Shown one piece after another: positions 13,098 through 24,637 of a DNA stretch of 26,251 bases. The notes beneath the pieces were generated by a model. It saw only the letters and a program-made list of their open reading frames with translations, was not told the origin of the DNA and searched no databases. The stretch is from a virus. The position numbers and the translations under genes were made by a program. Position 1 is the first letter of the stretch; every line of letters begins with the position of its first letter. The DNA lies in the IMG/VR virus record IMGVR_UViG_3300009428_000061, positions 1-26,251 of that record. One strand, given 5' to 3'.

Positions 13098-13331
13098 CTA
13101 GTTCAACAACATGAAGTTGTTAGCACCTTGAGTAACTAAACATCTTTCTGATAAGAAGTTCATAGTCATTGCATCTAAATCTGAAGTAGTAGCTCCAACC
13201 GAACCAGTGGTCCAAGTTTTAAGTTTTCTAGATTCAGTTTGAGAAGCTCTATAACGAACGTGTAAGAAAGGACGTTTAAGGTTTTTACCTAAGTTCTCAT
13301 CATAAACAGAAGATACACCAGCTGGGATCAT
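13098..13331 (-). CDS. Major capsid protein, C-terminal part, in a shifted frame
   Basis: From its first ATG this frame encodes 77 residues (MIPAGVSSVYDENLG to SERCLVTQGANNFMLLN). The frame stays open upstream to 13391 and gives 20 more capsid-like residues (LATRGGINENATAG and on to GEDIRGV). Those residues abut the last codon of the 377-residue capsid ORF, so this is the missing C-terminus of the same HK97-fold protein, not an independent gene. One extra base near 13388-13391 would join the two into a 474-aa protein, close to the size I expect for crAss-like capsids. An AGAGGTG sequence lies just before the ATG and could allow separate initiation, but it also encodes the continuous capsid sequence. 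The SERCLVTQGANNFML ending is typical of these capsids from memory. Confidence 0.8.
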   Translation of the reverse strand: MIPAGVSSVYDENLGKNLKRPFLHVRYRASQTESRKLKTWTTGSVGATTSDLDAMTMNFLSERCLVTQGANNFMLLN

Positions 13332-13387
13332 AACACCTCTAATGTCTTCTCCAGCAGTAGCATTTTCATTGATACCACCACGAGTAG

Positions 13388-14521
13388 CTAGTCATTTAAG
13401 TATTTCCAGTCAGACTTGTAGAAGTCATAAGAACCTCTTCTGAAACCAGAGAAACCTAAGTTTAAAGCCATATCCTCGTCGTTGTCGAATACACCGTAAG
13501 AAGTACCACCAGCACCATAAGAATTCATAGAAGCTAACATGTCGTCAATAGCAAGAGCTGAAGCTCTATTTACAAACATCATATTTTCTTCAATAGCACC
13601 ATTCTTATCGAACTCAGCTAGGATAGCGTCGAATTCAGCTAAATCAGTAGCAGCGTTAACACCAGTAACGCCAGAAGATTGGTGACCTCTAGATTTGATT
13701 GCAGCGAATAAACCTTCAGTACCAACTAAACCGTTTGCACCACCTAAGATAGTAGAAGCATCTGCAGCTTTTTCTGATTCAATCATACTCATCTCTAAGT
13801 AATCAGAGAAACGTGAACGAGTATCACCAGCAGCTTTTAAGTACCACAAGTAACCATTTTGTCCGTCCTCACCTGAAACTTCAACCCAACCAATTTGAGA
13901 AGCATCAGAACCTGAAACCTCATACTGATCTTTAAGTATAATCGGCTTGTTAGTGAAAGTAGTAAAAGAAGGCTTGTTAGAGCGAGCTCCACTGTAAGCA
14001 GTTCCTTTAGAGTTTTCAGAACCAAACACTAATACTCTAAGGTCGTTATCACCATCAGCGAAATTCATGTCCGATAAATGAGCACCACCGTAAGGTAAAG
14101 CAGTTATAGTTTGATTACCCGCAGCAGCTACAGTTACTAAAGCAGTAACAGTTTGTCCACCGCCTGAAATTAATACTTGGTCACCAACACGGACACCATG
14201 AGTAGTAGTTTGTTCTACACCGTCAATATCATGAGTAATGTTGATAGTACTAGCAGCGGCAGATAAGCAGTCCGCTCTATAAGAAAGGTGTAATCTACCT
14301 TGCTCTGACCAAACAACTTGATCAGCAGACATAGCTTCTTCTGCACCTACTTGATCTAAGAATCCTGCGATAGTACGCTTACCGTATACCTCAGCTTCTT
14401 TCTCCATTAAGTCTGGAAGGTACTGTTGTGCCCAACCATTGTCTTGGATGTCTAAATAATTGTCCGACGTAACTGCTTGCACTGATGCAGCTTGGAACGA
14501 CGATCTTGCTGTAATTGCCAT
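13388..14521 (-). CDS. Major capsid protein, N-terminal 377 residues (frame broken)
   Basis: The main shell protein, expected to have the HK97 fold. Evidence is position directly after the acidic scaffold gene and resemblance, from memory, to capsids of marine relatives of crAss-like phages, notably the segment NGYLWYLKAAGDTRSRFSDY (about residues 223-242) followed by LEMSMIESEKAAD. A beta-rich insertion at about residues 90-170 may be a surface domain. The ORF stops at TAG (13388-13390) straight after SDWKYLND, while capsid sequence continues in the -1 frame. As written, the product lacks about the last 97 residues. The -1 frame has a TGA overlapping the last sense codons, so a normal slippery heptamer shift is not possible. 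An assembly indel or a true mutation is most likely. The leader is Bacteroidota-like (ACAAATTATGG). Confidence 0.9.
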   Translation of the reverse strand: MAITARSSFQAASVQAVTSDNYLDIQDNGWAQQYLPDLMEKEAEVYGKRTIAGFLDQVGAEEAMSADQVVWSEQGRLHLSYRADCLSAAASTINITHDIDGVEQTTTHGVRVGDQVLISGGGQTVTALVTVAAAGNQTITALPYGGAHLSDMNFADGDNDLRVLVFGSENSKGTAYSGARSNKPSFTTFTNKPIILKDQYEVSGSDASQIGWVEVSGEDGQNGYLWYLKAAGDTRSRFSDYLEMSMIESEKAADASTILGGANGLVGTEGLFAAIKSRGHQSSGVTGVNAATDLAEFDAILAEFDKNGAIEENMMFVNRASALAIDDMLASMNSYGAGGTSYGVFDNDEDMALNLGFSGFRRGSYDFYKSDWKYLND

Positions 14522-15704: not shown

Positions 15705-18035
15705 TTACTTAGGTCCGAATGATTCTAATCCCATTCCGCCTCCAACTATATCATTACCTGATGATTCAAACTTTTTAACTGAATCACCACTTTTTATAAC
15801 TTCTCTGTTATCTTTCCTATCTTCCTCGATACCTTTTAGCTTCATGTTTATTTCAAACTCATGATCCATTAGTTCTTTCTTAACGGCAGCTTCTTGTATT
15901 AAGTATTGTATTCTGTACTCGTTTTTAGTTTTTTCAAATTGAGAATCTATCTGAGCTTTAGACTCGTTCTTTTGCATCTCCGCTTGAGCAGCTGATTGCT
16001 GTGCCTCTTGATTAGCTTTAGATTGAGCTTGAATGTTTTGCTGTTGCATAGCTTGATCTCTCTCTGACTTACGTTGTCTTTTTATTTTAAGCAACTGATT
16101 AGCCATTTTAACATTCCTAATATCTCTAAGATCTATGGCATCGTCTAAATCTATCAACTTATTACCTAGCGCCATCTGTATATTATTCTCAAGCATCTGT
16201 CTTTCCTCATCATCAGGCATAAGCTCTATAAATATACCAAAATCATATAGATGTAAATTAGACATCTCTTCTAACGTAGCAACATTGTGTGCACCTATAG
16301 CCTGTATGAATGCTTCCTTAGTAGGAGAGTATTCTATGATGTCAGATATTCTAAGTGATAATGCCTCTGCATTTTCAGCAGTTAATAACAAGACAGATTG
16401 AAGTATATGTCTAGTAGCTGTATTAGAATTAGCGGCAGCTATTTTCTGTATTCCTACTAACGCATTTTTATCTGGAGTAGAAGCGTCTCTAGCTTCATTT
16501 AAACCAGTTACATCACGTATCATTTGTAAGTAGTAATTATAAGTCTGAATTAGACTTTGTATTTTACCACCGCCAGAACCATTCTGTATTTGCTGTATAG
16601 GTATTTTACCCGGGTTTTGATCTCCCTCTGAAGTGAATGATCTACCAATAACGGAGCCTGTTTGGAAGAACATATTCAAGGCTTCTTGTGGATTGTAATT
16701 CGTACCATTACCTAAATCAACTTCAGCTAATCCATCAGCATCTAAATACACACCATCTGGAACCATACGAGAAAGAACTTGCTGTAGCTTTAAATGAGTT
16801 AACTGTATCATATCAGCGAAACCAGTAACTCTACTTACTATAGATTCTATCTTACCCTTATACATTCTAGGCGCGACTATACTGTAGTTCATCCTAACCT
16901 TATCGAAGTTAGACTTACTTCTAAGCATGTTCTTAGCCATCTCCCACTTAAGTAACTTGTTGGTACCAAGTATTAAAACACCTTCGTACACACACTCCAT
17001 AACTCTTTCAAGCTTAGAGAATTCACCTTCTAAACCTTCAGGTGGATTAAACGTATCATCTTTTTGTATAACCTTATCAGCACCTGTACCAGTTTGTTTT
17101 ACTTTATAAGTATCGTTCTTATGTGTCTTGTAATTAAAATATAGTACATCTACTTTATTGTAGTCTTTAGTACTGTGATTGTCGTAGTGTCTTATTGAAC
17201 TCTTAGGACCTTCTACTATACCTTTAATATCTTGCTCTGATAATTCAGGAAACTCTTTAACTAATTCGTTTATTGGTACCTGCTTTACTTCGCCTACATA
17301 GTATATATCATCGAAGTATGGAGACTCAGTATAAGAGTATACTAAGTTGGCTGGATCTACGTACTCAACTTTAGCTCCATCACTCCAATTGAAAGTTGTT
17401 TTTGTAGCACCTATACCTATAGTTGTTAAGTCATATAAAGCTCTACGTTTAATTAAATCATACTTACTGCCATCCATTAAAACATTTATAGCCTGCTCTT
17501 CAGCTAACTCCACTGCTTGCTTGTAATCAAGTTGCATGTGTAATTTTAATTCTTCTTCTGTATCTGGCAGTTTACCTTTGTCTGTTCTAAATACATCAAC
17601 ACCAAAGTCTTGCTGTACCTTATTATTAAAGTCCCTGGTCTTCATGTCTTTAATAACATCCTCCATGTACTTGGTTCTCTTGCTAACTCCGTACGAATCT
17701 TGAGAGTAAGCTTTTACTTCATAAGATCGTTGAGCCATACCGTTTACAACTATGTCTACAAACTTAGGCACTATAGGTACTGGCTTCCAGTCTAGGTTTA
17801 AGTAGCTAAGGTCACCATTTATAGATAGCTCATTCTTGTACTTCTGTATAGGTTGTTCACCTCTAGCGTAGAGCCTAAGTCTATGGAAGTCGTTTAAAGT
17901 ATTATGATACTTATCAGTTTTATCATTGAACCACTCTTGCTCAATAGCTCTAGCTACACGTAGACCGTATTCGCTTGTCATTTTTTCTAAATCACTAACC
18001 GCTTGAGACGGAAAGTTTATCGCAGACTCTGCCAT
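15705..18035 (-). CDS. Portal protein, 776 aa
   Basis: Forms the twelve-fold ring at one capsid vertex through which DNA is packaged and ejected. It follows TerL directly (3-nt gap) and precedes the scaffold. The size of 776 aa is close to that of crAss-like portals. The N-terminal part has the characteristic segment LYARGEQPIQKYKN (about residues 54-67), then LNLDWKPVPIVPKFVDIVVN (about residues 79-98), both recalled as typical of this portal group. The central part is a mixed stem/wing region. Residues about 670-750 are a long Gln/Ala/Lys/Glu-rich helix (QQQNIQAQSKANQEAQQSAA and on), consistent with the C-terminal barrel or crown. It ends in a glycine-rich tail. The start context is AATTATGG without a Shine-Dalgarno motif. 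Confidence 0.9.
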   Translation of the reverse strand: MAESAINFPSQAVSDLEKMTSEYGLRVARAIEQEWFNDKTDKYHNTLNDFHRLRLYARGEQPIQKYKNELSINGDLSYLNLDWKPVPIVPKFVDIVVNGMAQRSYEVKAYSQDSYGVSKRTKYMEDVIKDMKTRDFNNKVQQDFGVDVFRTDKGKLPDTEEELKLHMQLDYKQAVELAEEQAINVLMDGSKYDLIKRRALYDLTTIGIGATKTTFNWSDGAKVEYVDPANLVYSYTESPYFDDIYYVGEVKQVPINELVKEFPELSEQDIKGIVEGPKSSIRHYDNHSTKDYNKVDVLYFNYKTHKNDTYKVKQTGTGADKVIQKDDTFNPPEGLEGEFSKLERVMECVYEGVLILGTNKLLKWEMAKNMLRSKSNFDKVRMNYSIVAPRMYKGKIESIVSRVTGFADMIQLTHLKLQQVLSRMVPDGVYLDADGLAEVDLGNGTNYNPQEALNMFFQTGSVIGRSFTSEGDQNPGKIPIQQIQNGSGGGKIQSLIQTYNYYLQMIRDVTGLNEARDASTPDKNALVGIQKIAAANSNTATRHILQSVLLLTAENAEALSLRISDIIEYSPTKEAFIQAIGAHNVATLEEMSNLHLYDFGIFIELMPDDEERQMLENNIQMALGNKLIDLDDAIDLRDIRNVKMANQLLKIKRQRKSERDQAMQQQNIQAQSKANQEAQQSAAQAEMQKNESKAQIDSQFEKTKNEYRIQYLIQEAAVKKELMDHEFEINMKLKGIEEDRKDNREVIKSGDSVKKFESSGNDIVGGGMGLESFGPK

Positions 18036-18038
18036 AAT

Positions 18039-20267
18039 TTATTTTTTTATTATAGTTGAATTAAACCCATTGTTACTATATGTTGAAATGGTTATGTTTA
18101 GAGGCTCTCTTTTAACCTCTGGGTTTGGTCTATATAAATGTCTGTTACAAGCCATAACAGCTAATCCTGAGCTTATAGAAGCATCGTGCTTCGTTCTCTT
18201 GTTTATATTGAATTTACTCCAATCATTTAAAGTATCATTAAAGTAAACTGTACCGTAAGTGCCATCTTCCTGTAATCCGACATGATCTGCTATATACATT
18301 TCTAGAGCAGCTGCATGCGCTTGCTTTATATCTTCACTAGAGTTTGGCATACCACCTACCTCTCTTTCGGCTACAGATAATTTATTCCAAACCTTATCAG
18401 GTCTGTTCATGCTAAAACCTCTATAACCTCTTCTACGTATATAGTACAATAGACGGGGTTTATTATTCTCAGCGAGTATTGGCATCCCGTAGAATATTAA
18501 AGCCATTAGAACGTCTTCAAAGAATATCTCAGCGGTCTGAGGTCTCGCTAAGTACTCTAAGAAGAAAGTATTAGCTGGAGCATCTTCCATGCTGAACTTA
18601 GTAAGTCCATGTAAAGCACCTTTAGATCCTCTACCATCTACTGTTCCACTTATGTCATAACTATCACATCCAAACGCTCCCATGTGTTCATTGCCTGGGT
18701 ATTTGACACCGTTTTTTATTACAACATTATTCTGCATGTTACCATTAGGTATCCAACTAACTTTAAACCTACCATTAGGGTCTGGATTAAAAGTTACTTT
18801 AGAATCTTTGATACCACCTTGCCATTGAAAATTACCAGTGGTTAGTACCGAAGAGTTTCTATTACCTTCATTATAATCTATTTGCTCGTATATCTTAACT
18901 AAGTTAAATAAACTATTCTTAGTCTCATCTCTAAAAGCATGTTCTTCTGATCTAGGGAATTGTCTGTAGAATTCATTTAAAGCATCTTGATCTTCTTTAA
19001 GACCATCAACCTCGTTCTCCCAGTAATCTACTACCCCTATATCTATTAATTCACCATGAGGTCCTCTCCTATCATTGCGTGGTGTATCAAATACTGGAAT
19101 TCCGAACTCGTCAATAAATCCTTCATAGTTCCACTCCATTGGGATAAACAAAGAATATAAACCAGACTTAGTCTGGCCATTTCTATTTCTTTTTGTAACA
19201 TCTGAGTCTCCATAAAGTCTTTTAAAGTTATCACCACCTTTGTCAAGTGAGTTAGATGTTGAACCCATCATACACTTACCTACTATTCTACCACCCAACC
19301 TTAGGCACGTTTTAGTTACACGCCAATTGTTTAATATATTATCTGGCCTCTCCCATTTACCACTTTCATCGTGAACTAGTAAAGCAAGCTTTTCACCATC
19401 ATAACTATTATCACCTGTGTTCTTCCAGTCAATAGTAGTATCAAGACCTTCCATATCGTCCTGCTCTTCATGCACACCCATCTTTTTTCTAGTAAACTTT
19501 TTAGCAGGTATACGGTAAGCTAGCTCTGACTTAGGTCTATCCATACCATCCTGTATAGGTTTAAAAAAGAACGGGTAGTTTAAACTTATAGGTACTATCT
19601 TGTCGGTGAACATTTTCTTAGCATCACCACCACTCTTGGATAATACTCCAAATCTACTATCACCTGCTAGAGTAGCTAAGTTAACGGTTTCAGCTGAGCT
19701 CATGAAAGAAAAACCAGAACGTCTATTCTTTAAATAGCACATACCATAACTTCTCTTGTCGGCTTTACACGCTTCCCAGAATAAGAAAAATAGTCTATTA
19801 GCTTCTCTAAAGTCAGGCGCTCCTACATCTATCTTACTCCATTGTAAGTACATGTAATAACTACCAGTTATATAAGTTGGTTTACCGTTGTTCATAAACC
19901 AAAAGCCATTATCTCTTCTTTGAAATTCTTGGTCTATATACTTGTAGTGTAGTTCTTTAAATTCTTTAGAGTAACCATCCCAATCGAATCTAGTTTTTAT
20001 TTTACTAAAAGCCTCGTTAGGCTCAAACCTTCCCCACTTTTGTTTAGCCAAATCACTAGACGCTTTGAATATATTAGCAGGTGTTTTAGGTAAAGCTATA
20101 ACTAAGCCTTGCATCTCTATTATTTCACCTATCTCTCCAGTCTTAGATAATACGACTAAGTCATTTTCTTTATTATAACCATACTCCCATTTCTTGCCTT
20201 TGTTAAGTCTTTTTATAGTGGTTAGCTTAACTGGTTCTACTATTTTATATAGATCTTGCTTGTACAT
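18039..20267 (-). CDS. terL: Terminase large subunit (packaging ATPase-nuclease), 742 aa
   Basis: The motor that pumps DNA into the prohead and cuts concatemers. The ATPase domain shows an arginine-rich, non-canonical Walker A region (KNRRSGFSF, about residues 180-188), a Walker B (LALLVHDES, 294-302, with the DE pair) and a coupling motif (GSTSN, 335-339). The C-terminal nuclease domain has GCDSYDISGT (533-542) with a candidate metal-binding Asp535, and KHDASISSGLA (694-704) with Asp695. The length of 742 aa is on the long side but normal for crAss-like terminases. The start overlaps the previous stop as TAATG; a GGGAGGAG sequence 7-14 bases upstream is one of the few Shine-Dalgarno-like sites in the window. 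The portal follows 3 nt after its stop. Confidence 0.95.
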   Translation of the reverse strand: MYKQDLYKIVEPVKLTTIKRLNKGKKWEYGYNKENDLVVLSKTGEIGEIIEMQGLVIALPKTPANIFKASSDLAKQKWGRFEPNEAFSKIKTRFDWDGYSKEFKELHYKYIDQEFQRRDNGFWFMNNGKPTYITGSYYMYLQWSKIDVGAPDFREANRLFFLFWEACKADKRSYGMCYLKNRRSGFSFMSSAETVNLATLAGDSRFGVLSKSGGDAKKMFTDKIVPISLNYPFFFKPIQDGMDRPKSELAYRIPAKKFTRKKMGVHEEQDDMEGLDTTIDWKNTGDNSYDGEKLALLVHDESGKWERPDNILNNWRVTKTCLRLGGRIVGKCMMGSTSNSLDKGGDNFKRLYGDSDVTKRNRNGQTKSGLYSLFIPMEWNYEGFIDEFGIPVFDTPRNDRRGPHGELIDIGVVDYWENEVDGLKEDQDALNEFYRQFPRSEEHAFRDETKNSLFNLVKIYEQIDYNEGNRNSSVLTTGNFQWQGGIKDSKVTFNPDPNGRFKVSWIPNGNMQNNVVIKNGVKYPGNEHMGAFGCDSYDISGTVDGRGSKGALHGLTKFSMEDAPANTFFLEYLARPQTAEIFFEDVLMALIFYGMPILAENNKPRLLYYIRRRGYRGFSMNRPDKVWNKLSVAEREVGGMPNSSEDIKQAHAAALEMYIADHVGLQEDGTYGTVYFNDTLNDWSKFNINKRTKHDASISSGLAVMACNRHLYRPNPEVKREPLNITISTYSNNGFNSTIIKK

Positions 20268-20554
20268 TACTTACTCCTCCCTTCAGCAAACCCTTTAAAC
20301 TTAGGTTTGTCAGACGCTAATTTAGATTCCTCTATTTCTGTTAACACTCTTTCCTCTTCCTGGATTCTGTTAAGTATTTCGAACGCATCAAATATCGCGA
20401 GTTTCTTCGTTGCTGCAGCGTTTTTAAGCCTATCAGCTGTGATGTCATCACCACCATCAACAATAGCTTCTTTAGCAATCTTAATAAGTTCTTCAACGGC
20501 TTTATGCCCAGCTTGGATTATACTCTTTTTCGTTTCCTCTATATTCATATTCAA
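20267..20554 (-). CDS. Putative small terminase subunit, 95 aa
   Basis: A short, helical, charged protein (for example DRLKNAAATKKLAIFDAFEI, about residues 41-60). It lies immediately upstream of terL and its stop overlaps the terL start (TAATG). Position and helical character suggest a TerS that recognises phage DNA, but 95 aa is short for TerS and no clear helix-turn-helix is visible, so it could be another conserved protein. The first ATG (20554) gives a 53-nt overlap with the preceding gene; a second ATG two codons later shortens it only slightly. Overlaps of this size occur elsewhere in this gene block. Confidence 0.6.
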   Translation of the reverse strand: MNMNIEETKKSIIQAGHKAVEELIKIAKEAIVDGGDDITADRLKNAAATKKLAIFDAFEILNRIQEEERVLTEIEESKLASDKPKFKGFAEGRSK

Positions 20555-21083
20555 TTGTAATAAATTTATTCATAACTCTATACAACCTCTCTCCATCTAC
20601 TACAAACTCGTAAGTACTTACTGGATCAAAACCTATAAGCTTATCCTTAGAGTGAGTTCCGTCCGAATACTTTACAACACCTATTAGCTCTTTTTCTTTA
20701 CTCAAACTAAACTTGTCTGTAGATTCTATAGGCTTAACGAAAGTGTAACCAGGCATACACACCCATTTAGACTCTTTACCATACATAAATATTTGATCAG
20801 ATCCAACTAGATACTGACCTTCCTTTATAAATGACCTACTATTCTTCTCTATACCTTTAACGTTGTGCCAGCGTCTGAATACGTTATGATGCAGTACAAC
20901 TTCATCACCTACCTCTAATTTGTTAGGATTATAAAAAGGAGTTGCGACTACAACCCCTTTTCTATTAACATATTCATGGTTGAACATCTCAGTATTCAAT
21001 ATTAACTCTTTGTCACCTACCTTATGTATGTTGTTATATCTATCACCTACAGGCTCTATTATAAAATCAACTACAGGCTTCAT
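20502..21083 (-). CDS. GroES-like protein, probably two cpn10 barrels in tandem, 193 aa
   Basis: The first half (about residues 5-105) follows the order of a GroES barrel: a first strand (DFIIEPVGD), a loop region, NRKGVVVATP, then LEVGDEVVLHHNVFR, which matches the VGD-x-V core of cpn10, and YLVGSDQIFMY, matching the final strand before the C-terminus. The second half repeats the order in reduced form: YTFVKPIE (113-120), KELIGVVKYS (131-140), and YEFVVDGERLYRVMNKFITI (158-177). A glycine-hydrophobic mobile loop like GGLLL is not obvious, so it may not dock on GroEL in the standard way. It lies three genes below the holin-like gene and just before the TerS-like gene. It could assist capsid folding together with the phage GroEL and GroES, or use the fold for another purpose. 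Confidence 0.6.
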   Translation of the reverse strand: MKPVVDFIIEPVGDRYNNIHKVGDKELILNTEMFNHEYVNRKGVVVATPFYNPNKLEVGDEVVLHHNVFRRWHNVKGIEKNSRSFIKEGQYLVGSDQIFMYGKESKWVCMPGYTFVKPIESTDKFSLSKEKELIGVVKYSDGTHSKDKLIGFDPVSTYEFVVDGERLYRVMNKFITIEYEYRGNEKEYNPSWA

Positions 21084-22058: not shown

Positions 22059-22496
22059 TTATCTGTCTTTATCTTTAATCATATCGTCTATAGCTTTGTT
22101 CATCACTTTATCCGTATATGATTCGTTATTATAGTATACACATTTCATAGAGGTGGGTATATCTTCTTCACCTAGTAAAATCCTATATATTCTACTTATA
22201 AGATGGTTACACTTAAATGAGGTTTTATAAACACTGTACTTTATAGTAGTCCTGTTCCTATGTCTCCATGTATCTATCCAACCTTCTTTTCTAAGCCTGT
22301 CCCATCTTTGCTTATCCCAGGAGTATGCATATACACCATTAATAAAATCATCTCTAGTGAATCTATTTAAACAGTTTAAGTATATTAACAACTCTAGGTC
22401 AGCATCTTTTATGTCGTTCTGTTTACAAGCCCATTTCCTAACTAGTCTATAGTACTTTAAAAACCCTGCATCTTTAAGATCCTGCGCTCGGTTCAT
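22059..22496 (-). CDS. Putative winged-helix DNA-binding protein, 145 aa
   Basis: A basic, aromatic-rich protein. The segment DADLELLIYLNCLNRFTRDD (about residues 32-51), followed by AYSWDKQRWDRLRKEGWIDT (57-76) and HRNRTTIKYSVYKTSF (79-94), reads as helix, turn, recognition helix and beta wing, as in MarR-like winged-helix proteins. The C-terminal part is helical (NHLISRIYRILLGEEDIP). From memory, similar proteins lie near the packaging genes of marine Bacteroidota phages, where they are usually unnamed. It could be a transcriptional regulator of late genes or a packaging-site binder (small-terminase role). It overlaps groES by 23 nt and is followed 1 nt later by the 25-codon ORF. The start is the only in-frame ATG near the operon spacing. 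Confidence 0.6.
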   Translation of the reverse strand: MNRAQDLKDAGFLKYYRLVRKWACKQNDIKDADLELLIYLNCLNRFTRDDFINGVYAYSWDKQRWDRLRKEGWIDTWRHRNRTTIKYSVYKTSFKCNHLISRIYRILLGEEDIPTSMKCVYYNNESYTDKVMNKAIDDMIKDKDR

Positions 22497-22749
22497 CTAC
22501 TAAAACTACATCTCTTAGCTTTATAACTCTATACATAGAATCTTCGTACGCTATATCATGACCAGCATGCTTGTCGTACATAACTATTGTACCAGATTTT
22601 ATTACTTCAGCTAAGTGACCTACGGATATTACCTTAGCTTTCTTATATCTATTATCAGAGTCTGTTGCATCAGTCAGTAGTAAACCACCTGAAGTTTTCT
22701 TTTGCTCTTTTATTTCTTCTACTACAACGTAGTCATTAATTGCTTTCAT
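22474..22749 (-). CDS. groES: Phage GroES co-chaperonin, 91 aa
   Basis: The seven-membered lid of a GroEL ring. The full cpn10 pattern is visible: AINDYVVVEEI as the first strand, the mobile loop KKTSGGLLLTD (about residues 17-27) with a hydrophobic tripeptide LLL where E. coli GroES has IVL, then KAKVISVG, SGTIVMYDKHAGHDI and the final strand YRVIKLRDVVLVDE. The length is normal. It overlaps the end of groEL by 14 nt and the 145-aa gene by 23 nt. The frame also has a GTG one codon upstream (22752); I chose the ATG because MKAIND fits the family start, and an AGAGG sequence lies just before it. The order groEL-groES is reversed relative to most bacterial operons. Confidence 0.9.
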   Translation of the reverse strand: MKAINDYVVVEEIKEQKKTSGGLLLTDATDSDNRYKKAKVISVGHLAEVIKSGTIVMYDKHAGHDIAYEDSMYRVIKLRDVVLVDEPSAGS

Positions 22750-24301
22750 CACCTCTCATATTTGAAATTACACAATCAGCGGACATTATAGTAAGTGCTA
22801 CACTCACGGCATTTTTCAGCGCCGATTTTGTAACCAAAACCGGATCTACTATCCCAGCATTAATCATATCTACAGACTCTCCGGAGATAACATCAATACC
22901 CAAGCCTTCACCTACCGAAGTCTGAGGATCAAGTCCTGCATTAGCCAGTATAGTAATGAAAGGTGCTCTCAATGCTTCTAAGAGTACGTCAGCACCCACG
23001 TAAGTGGGAGAAATTTTTTCGGAAGCATCAACGAGCGCTACGCCTCCTCCAGAAACTATACCTTCTTGTAGAGCAGCTTTAGTAGCATATATAGCATCTT
23101 CCACTCTATCTCTCTTTTCTTTTAATTCTACTTTAGATACAGCACCAACTTTTACTATACCAACGCTACCAGATAATGTAGCTAACCTTTGTTCTAGTTT
23201 TTTCTTTATAAAACCGTTCTGCTCTTTGCTGATCTTACTCTCTAGTTCTTTAACTCGTTCTTCAACTGCATCTGTAACTTCATTTAAAGTTATAACAGTA
23301 GTCTTATCATTAGTTACCGCAAACTCAGCTTCACCTAGACTGTCAATAGTGATTAAATCTAAGTCATCACCTAGCTCTTCGTTTATAACAGTGGCACCAG
23401 TTAATATAGCTAAGTCTTCCATAGCATCAGCCTTAGTAGGTCCGAAACCAGGTGGGTCAATTATATTTATCTTAATGTTACCCTTAACTTTATTCATTAG
23501 TAGAGCGGACTTAACTTGCTGTGCTACGGGAGCGACAATAAGTAACGAACGGTTATTCTTTATAACATGTTCTAATATGCTCTGGATCTTACGTATGTTA
23601 GGGATCTCTGAGGACACTGTAAGAATATAAGGATTGTCTAGCTCAGCTAAGTGCTTCTCTGTGTTTGTAACAAAGTGTGGCGACGTTATCCCACAATCTA
23701 TTTGTGCTCCATCAACTACTTCTACATAAGTATCTTCAGAATCACTGTTCTCCATTAGTACTACTCCATGTTTACCAACTTTGTTATAAGCCTCTGCGAT
23801 TATAGCACCTAGTTCCTTATCATTATTACATGATATAGCTGCGACAGATTTTAACATGTCTCCTTCTACTTCTACAGCACTGTTAGTTAAGTAATCTAAT
23901 ACTTCATCTAAACAAGTTGTAACTCCATCTTTTACTTCTCTGATTGATGATCCTGCAGCGACGGCACGATCGATAGATTTAATTAAAGCTTCACCAAGAA
24001 CAGTGGCAGTGGTTGTACCATCACCAGCTTCTTTCACTGTGTTCCTAGCAGCTTCCTTCATAAGTGTTGCACCCATATTCTCAACCGGATCAAATAAGAC
24101 TACGCTTTCTGCAACGGTTACTCCGTCTTTTGTTATGACCGGTTTGCCTCTTCCATCTTCATATATCACGCATTTTCCTGATGCGCCCAGTGTGGATTTA
24201 ACGGCTTGTGCTAACTTATTAACTCCGGTGATAACTCTGTTTTTAGCTTCATCACCGAAGTCTAAGTTTTTAACCAATTCGCTTGGTAAGTTGTATTCCA
24301 T
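22736..24301 (-). CDS. groEL: Phage GroEL chaperonin, 521 aa
   Basis: An ATP-dependent folding ring. Key features are intact: KPVITKDGVTVAES (53-66, with Asp59 equivalent to E. coli D52), GDGTTTAT (93-100, nucleotide-binding, Asp94 equivalent to D87), VKVGAVSKVELKEKRDRVED (383-402, with Asp402 equivalent to the catalytic D398) and SGGGVAL (417-423). The apical domain is complete. At 521 residues it is slightly shorter than E. coli GroEL, because the flexible Gly-Gly-Met tail is absent; the protein ends MRGDESN. The starting region is also different from host GroEL. It is followed immediately by phage groES and lies in the arm that also carries the capsid genes, so its likely clients are virion proteins, perhaps the major capsid protein. 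The start is the first ATG after a TTTAATTTAATTTAATT leader. No CIRCE element is visible. Confidence 0.95.
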   Translation of the reverse strand: MEYNLPSELVKNLDFGDEAKNRVITGVNKLAQAVKSTLGASGKCVIYEDGRGKPVITKDGVTVAESVVLFDPVENMGATLMKEAARNTVKEAGDGTTTATVLGEALIKSIDRAVAAGSSIREVKDGVTTCLDEVLDYLTNSAVEVEGDMLKSVAAISCNNDKELGAIIAEAYNKVGKHGVVLMENSDSEDTYVEVVDGAQIDCGITSPHFVTNTEKHLAELDNPYILTVSSEIPNIRKIQSILEHVIKNNRSLLIVAPVAQQVKSALLMNKVKGNIKINIIDPPGFGPTKADAMEDLAILTGATVINEELGDDLDLITIDSLGEAEFAVTNDKTTVITLNEVTDAVEERVKELESKISKEQNGFIKKKLEQRLATLSGSVGIVKVGAVSKVELKEKRDRVEDAIYATKAALQEGIVSGGGVALVDASEKISPTYVGADVLLEALRAPFITILANAGLDPQTSVGEGLGIDVISGESVDMINAGIVDPVLVTKSALKNAVSVALTIMSADCVISNMRGDESN

Positions 24302-24340: not shown

Positions 24341-24637
24341 TTATTTAAAGGTCTTCACGACCTTGGGTCCATCAATGAACTCCAGTTTTTTACTAAAGTG
24401 TTCGACACTGCCATTGATAGCAGTCTCAGCCCCATCAAGTGTTTCTCTTCTTGTAACATCAACCCACTTTTCTTCGTCGGTGGGGTTGTTGACTTCTGTT
24501 TGGTAGTATCCATTTGGTAGTTGTGTTATTCGCCAGTTACCTTTATCGGCTAGATGTTTCCATTCCTCTAGTTTTTGGTCAGATACAGTAGGTTGTCCAG
24601 TGTTTAGTGTACTGGTTTTGTAGTAGTAATAGGTCAT
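24341..24637 (-). CDS. Conserved phage protein, 98 aa
   Basis: Sequence features: MTYYYYKTSTLNTG, then a central KGNWRITQLPNGYYQTE and WVDVTRRETLDGAETAIN, ending in GPKVVKTFK. I recall close relatives as short conserved proteins of unknown function in marine Bacteroidota phages. It is soluble, mixed alpha/beta and has no cysteine. The middle WVDVTRRE...AE.AI..S segment looks like a helix after a strand. It lies between the small basic-protein genes and groEL, with a 39-nt A/T-rich gap before groEL. No catalytic motif or DNA-binding motif is evident, so no role is proposed. Confidence 0.72.
   Translation of the reverse strand: MTYYYYKTSTLNTGQPTVSDQKLEEWKHLADKGNWRITQLPNGYYQTEVNNPTDEEKWVDVTRRETLDGAETAINGSVEHFSKKLEFIDGPKVVKTFK

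Follow-up and report, generated by a model that had tools for sequence, protein, structure and literature searches.

Phages that encode both a chaperonin and a co-chaperonin raise the question of whether the two genes were taken recently from a host operon and, if they were not, what kind of folding machine they specify and for which proteins. We addressed this for a groEL–groES pair in a stretch of 26,251 bases from an IMG/VR virus record (hereafter the window, meaning the whole stretch that was analysed). Because near relatives span 61–71 kb, the window is probably a fragment of a larger phage genome. Our analysis favors, as the probable explanation, that a podovirus-like phage of Bacteroidota type has long carried its own group I chaperonin system, specific to its lineage. 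Three genes would make up this system, encoding a GroEL ring, a GroES without a roof and a further GroES-like protein, ES2.

Gene layout of the chaperonin locus

An earlier sequence-only reading of this DNA had placed the chaperonin genes in the same leftward arm as the virion genes, and the annotation agrees: the terminase, portal, capsid-like and large tail-like open reading frames (ORFs) all lie on one strand with them. The features considered here are as follows:

22736..24301, minus strand: groEL, a 521-aa group I chaperonin with an ATG start (Pfam PF00118)
22474..22749, minus strand: groES, a 91-aa Cpn10 (Pfam PF00166)
20502..21083, minus strand: ES2, a 193-aa predicted tandem Cpn10-like protein (phrog_13932)
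18039..20267, minus strand: terminase large subunit (phrog_6681), the context of ES2
15705..18035, minus strand: portal protein (phrog_6547), context
13388..14521, minus strand: N-terminal 377 aa of a major-capsid-like virion protein (phrog_13704), a candidate client
13098..13331, minus strand: the C-terminal 77 aa of this capsid-like protein, encoded in a different frame
22059..22496, minus strand: 145-aa conserved protein after groES (phrog_17028), function unknown
24341..24637, minus strand: 98-aa conserved protein before groEL in most relatives, with no PHROG match

The groES ORF extends from a GTG codon (22474–22752, minus strand), and the next codon, an ATG at 22749, matches the start in relatives; from this ATG, groES overlaps the end of groEL by 14 nt. 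Scans of the groEL–groES junction for promoters and terminators found nothing, and promoter-like sites were fewer than in shuffled sequences. In most of 80 relatives the pair is flanked by the 98-aa protein upstream and the 145-aa protein downstream. The spacing from groES to the 145-aa gene or to ES2 differs by up to several kb (loci L018, L028, L055 and others), and small genes therefore appear to come and go around fixed chaperonin genes. The capsid-like gene (13098–14521, minus strand) is frameshifted in the window, through either a sequencing error or a true frameshift, and is a single ORF in MW202828, Panino, elemo and phi38:1.

A full-length GroEL with an intact ATP site

The window GroEL matched the Cpn60 profile PF00118 at 190.6 bits (cut-off, 34.3) over positions 1–488 of 490, which bears out the description of its 521 residues as a full-length chaperonin, and was 40% identical to E. 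coli GroEL. A chance or decayed ORF was ruled out by profile scores and conservation. In E. coli numbering, the protein keeps T30, L31, G32, K51, D52, G86–T91, I150 and S151, as well as D398, G414, G415 and D495. The statement that all key ATPase residues are present thus holds for the site as a whole, with two exceptions: P33A, which is conserved among viral GroELs, and an N479/D alternation, which is also seen in bacteria. Across 81 viral GroELs the ATP/Mg site (D52, D87, T89–T91, D398, G415 and D495) is kept and the entropy of the ATP loop is 0.00.

The apical groove has been altered in part. While L237, F204 and hydrophobic residues at 230, 233, 263 and 264 are kept, the window GroEL carries the substitutions Y199I, Y203H, L234Q and L259K, and L234Q and L259K occur in nearly all members of the window clade but not in elemo, Panino or bacteria. 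E. coli GroEL needs L234 and L259 for binding both substrate and GroES, and groove and lid have therefore presumably co-adapted. One could speculate that the acidic stretch conserved behind the mobile-loop tripeptide in the viral GroES proteins (LTDxTDxDNRY) faces K259. Elsewhere in the protein, the R197–E386 pair is lost in 81 of 81 viral GroELs, where it is replaced by C/S–K. A clean charge swap of the D83–K327 pair was considered and rejected, since in a larger alignment position 83 was basic in all sequences and position 327 acidic in only ~60%. The Gly-Gly-Met C-terminal tail is absent (the window GroEL ends ...VISNMRGDESN); this tail is typical but not universal and hence not defining.

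A roofless GroES and a predicted tandem co-chaperonin

GroES was assigned by its match to PF00166 (47.3 bits, above the Pfam cut-off) and by profile alignment to bacterial GroES (hhalign, E = 5e-16), and its structural model forms a Cpn10 barrel (pLDDT 84; fold Z about 10) in which the mobile loop is modeled at low confidence. The mobile loop, which had been reported as intact, is present in the sequence (KTSGGLLLTDATDSDNRY) with a hydrophobic tripeptide in GGLLLT; in relatives this tripeptide is mostly LIL or LLL. The protein lacks the roof hairpin: where E. coli GroES has 19 residues between the barrel strands, it has 9, and the model shows no strands there. The hairpin is usual in GroES and absent in gp31, so it is not a defining feature. 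In all 80 viral loci, groES adjoins groEL or lies near it.

ES2, overlooked in the sequence-only reading, is a third chaperonin-related gene (20502–21083, minus strand) whose product matches the PHROG family phrog_13932, 'co-chaperonin GroES'. It was found in every relative whose contig spans its position and has homologs in Elemovirus, Panino, MW202828 and phi38:1 and a positional homolog in phi18:3; in the related genomes examined it adjoins the terminase gene or lies near it. A Pfam search of the window ES2 returned no match, and comparing the ES2 and GroES alignments as profiles gave, taken alone, no convincing match. An AlphaFold2 model built from 56 locus sequences (pLDDT 80, pTM 0.73) contains two successive sets of barrel strands, and the sole Foldseek match in the PDB at E ≤ 0.001 was chloroplast Cpn20 (7ekq_R; E = 2e-4, full length), with which it superposes at Z 9.3 and an rmsd of 3.8 Å over 150 aligned residues. 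Single GroES chains fit the second barrel at Z 7–9, and this barrel also aligns with bacterial GroES (hhalign, E = 1.6e-4); for the first barrel, the sequence signal is weak. Among homologs, the C-terminal domains of the phi18:3 and phi38:1 proteins score above the Pfam cut-off for Cpn10, and residues 14–64 of the elemo protein (N-terminal domain) match the Cpn10/GroES-type profile phrog_3188 weakly (3e-4), which supports the first barrel in part. A mobile-loop-like segment, KELILNTE, is restricted to the first domain. Sequence and model together thus predict ES2 to be two Cpn10 barrels in tandem. Matches of the barrels to quinone oxidoreductases (Foldseek and VIA-align; Z 4–6) were discounted as reflecting a shared GroES-like fold.

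Gene order, prevalence and origin of the pair

The order of the two genes is indeed opposite to that of bacteria, as had been noticed: groEL precedes groES in all 80 IMG/VR relatives that were counted, out of at least 600 matching stretches, whereas groES precedes groEL in all 88 bacterial loci with groES inside the fetched flank. The viral order is common to Elemovirus, Panino and MW202828, from which both the pair and its order were already known, and 68 Flavobacterium (elemo) records carry the pair in the same order. The bacterial order is found in phi38:1, Calle_1 and an immuto phage. The claim that GroEL and the complete pair are rare in phages stood for phages at large, with GroEL-like proteins in just 260 of 50,697 phage records, but not within the window lineage, where every locus that we examined contained the pair. 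Several of the GroEL-like 'phage' records (for example OR848861, CAKLQH020000021 and AFYI01000007) resemble pieces of bacterial chromosomes, and counts of GroEL-bearing phages may therefore be inflated.

The sequence-only reading had taken the gene order as an argument against recent capture of a host operon and had proposed a phylogeny as a check. For GroEL we inferred a tree of 58 sequences under an LG+C20 mixture model, leaving out the long branches of phiEL, AR9, MaF61 and Dulem41. In this tree the window clade falls with other phages: together with the remaining groEL-first phages and phi38:1/Calle_1, it is split from all sampled bacterial GroELs by a branch supported at 100/97. Placement of the window clade with Bacteroidota was rejected (AU test, p = 1.4e-5). 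A moderately supported branch (91/82) has the groEL-first phages all on one side, and the deeper branching order is unsure because of long branches. Proteins from Bacteroides phage DAC19, a huge-phage record and Vibrio phages were nested within bacterial phyla.

In 395 Bacteroidota genomes, no listed match exceeded 45% identity. Together with the 80/80 and 88/88 split in gene order, the tree and the AU rejection indicate an old phage chaperonin lineage of which the order is a mark; the argument from gene order stands, and the data support a GroEL–GroES system that evolved inside an aquatic phage lineage, with no fresh copy of a host operon. The host itself is likely a member of the Bacteroidota, probably Flavobacteriia, since cultured phages with related terminases all infect Flavobacterium, Maribacter, Cellulophaga or Tenacibaculum.

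Relaxed conservation of the ring–ring face

Residues 105, 109, 452, 461, 463 and 464 were taken as the established inter-ring contacts of E. coli GroEL. Mean entropy at these six residues was 2.87 bits in the 81 viral GroELs versus 0.70 in 93 bacterial GroELs, and all six ranked in the top 10 of 513 positions by viral–bacterial entropy difference (within the top 19 and the top 27 after dereplication). By comparison, entropy was lower in viral than in bacterial GroELs at the intra-ring stem loop (0.19 versus 0.83) and the C-terminal strand (0.12 versus 1.12). Contact-loop residues 434 and 467 (E. coli numbering) are gaps in nearly all viral GroELs, and two loops of the ring–ring face are shortened in the window GroEL. 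Hypervariable inter-ring residues alongside tight intra-ring and ATP sites therefore predict either a single ring or a free ring–ring face. On this sequence evidence, the phage GroEL may form a single ring, or rings that do not pair in the E. coli way; loss of conservation at a contact face would also fit an interface that has moved or is evolving fast. Precedents exist on both sides: in the presence of ATP, the chaperonin of phage EL comes apart into single rings, and it also retains a double ring through different contacts (PMC7185714); those of OBP and AR9 occur as single rings (PMC9598537).

Virion genes and candidate clients

The suggestion that the capsid protein depends on a folding ring of its own was not borne out by comparison with Cellulophaga phage phi18:3, which encodes homologous terminase, portal and capsid-like proteins and two GroES-type genes, and in whose 71-kb genome we found no GroEL. 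This phage probably relies on the host ring. A capsid of this type therefore has no strict need for a phage ring, and host GroEL presumably suffices. The position of the chaperonin genes among late genes nevertheless suggests virion proteins as candidate clients, and the capsid protein is a plausible one. In phi38:1 and Calle_1, genes for DNA polymerase and exonuclease surround the groES–groEL pair, which is away from the virion genes. Phage phi18:3 belongs to the Pachyviridae, and its two GroES-type genes are separate (locus L086, 1109–1363 and 11459–12061).

Proposed mechanism and alternative explanations

In the mechanism that we propose, the phage GroEL would act mainly as a single seven-subunit ring with a ring–ring face free of selection. 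Its altered apical groove would bind phage and possibly host polypeptides, late virion proteins being the likeliest candidates, and its own GroES would close the ring in an ATP cycle. The open roof of this GroES could leave the cage larger or unclosed, as in T4 gp31, and ES2 may serve as a second or mixed lid, either forming hetero-rings with GroES (as Cpn10 and Cpn20 do in chloroplasts) or redirecting host GroEL. A stronger version, in which these parts make up a new architecture (a single ring with a partly polar groove and two lids, one a roofless GroES and the other Cpn20-like with one mobile loop and two barrels, mixed or shared between phage and host GroEL), is conceivable, and we put it forward only tentatively.

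One competing explanation is an ordinary double-ring GroEL–GroES that the phage uses as its host does, with ring–ring contacts that drift or co-vary and yet form. The catalytic residues are all kept, a GroES partner is encoded and the phiEL chaperonin retains double rings although their contacts are altered (PMC7185714). We nonetheless hold this rather unlikely: few positions in the protein are as relaxed as the six inter-ring residues, while every other tested interface is tight, and the gaps at 434 and 467 affect nearly all viral GroELs. That GroEL has instead lost its folding cage and become a moonlighting or structural protein would fit the changed groove (L234Q, L259K and Y203H), the lost R197–E386 pair and a position among late genes. 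This is very improbable, however, given an ATP site invariant in 81 GroELs and a GroES with a mobile loop in 80 of 80 loci, a combination expected only under selection for an ATP-driven lid cycle.

Recent capture of a host groESL operon, followed by rearrangement that swapped the genes, has in its favor that the top-scoring bacterial GroELs come mostly from Flavobacteriia, the host group of related isolates. With the low identity to Bacteroidota proteins, the AU rejection and an order and divergence common to relatives, it is barely credible. A further alternative concerns only the clients and is otherwise compatible with the long-resident, three-gene system that we prefer: replication or host proteins, under low temperature or infection stress, would be the main substrates in place of virion proteins. 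The setting of the pair in phi38:1 and Calle_1 points that way, as does the homologous virion set without GroEL in phi18:3, but in the window clade all three genes sit in the virion arm and in the related genomes that we examined ES2 stays next to the terminase or close to it. We regard this alternative as possible though doubtful.

Comparison with known systems

The closest counterparts are Elemovirus (Flavobacterium phage elemo) and Maribacter phage Panino, which share with the window the groEL-then-groES order on one strand, an ES2 homolog beside the terminase and homologous terminase, portal and capsid-like proteins. Elemovirus records annotate both genes and the Panino record annotates GroEL; the GroEL and GroES homologs of Panino have also been mentioned in print (PMC11590407). 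Their GroELs are, however, only about 38% identical to that of the window. The pair and the virion genes of elemo are on opposite strands, and in Panino a small ORF separates groEL from groES. Apical position 259 is K in the window, M in elemo and L in Panino, and Q234 occurs in neither elemo nor Panino. Viral GroELs from virioplankton are reportedly also divergent, with the order of the large- and small-subunit genes linked to GroEL phylogeny (Marine et al. 2017, ISME J, cited in PMC7185714 and PMC5934643), which resembles the situation here; we know of no record of a tandem Cpn10 or a relaxed ring–ring face among them.

Phage chaperonins characterized so far are either lidless (EL, OBP and AR9) or lid-only (gp31 and CocO). 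The EL, OBP and AR9 proteins are, like the window GroEL, phage-encoded GroEL relatives, and all three have single-ring states; they are reported to work without a co-chaperonin, whereas the window GroEL comes with GroES, and those of EL and AR9 are about 25% identical to it. T4 gp31, like the window GroES, is a roofless phage co-chaperonin; it serves in capsid folding, and its lack of roof loops is believed to help with the large capsid protein gp23 (PMC6318259). T4 gp31 and RB49 CocO use host GroEL, whereas the window phage also encodes its own. To these systems the locus adds a predicted tandem co-chaperonin, a lid modeled as roofless and an apparently relaxed ring–ring face. If the proposed mechanism is correct, a lidded ring without ring–ring selection would be a natural test of the need for a second ring, a long-standing question for chaperonins. 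The genes are common in aquatic phages, and cultivated relatives (Flavobacterium, Maribacter and Cellulophaga phages) make tests of clients and ring number feasible.

Chloroplast Cpn20 is the best full-length fold match of ES2 and, like its predicted structure, has tandem Cpn10 barrels; the two differ in sequence (about 10–15% identity) and in that only the first domain of ES2 carries a mobile-loop-like segment. To our knowledge, Cpn20-type lids are otherwise known from plastids alone, and a phage tandem Cpn10 would, if confirmed, be a second setting for them. In apicomplexan cpn20, a mobile loop and roof have been reported in both domains (PMC3542282). A separate case was observed in Flavobacterium phage MaF61 (L191:948–3213), where a 187-aa protein with two Pfam Cpn10 matches is encoded directly upstream of a divergent GroEL-like gene whose product is 28% identical to the window GroEL; tandem Cpn10 proteins therefore exist in phages.
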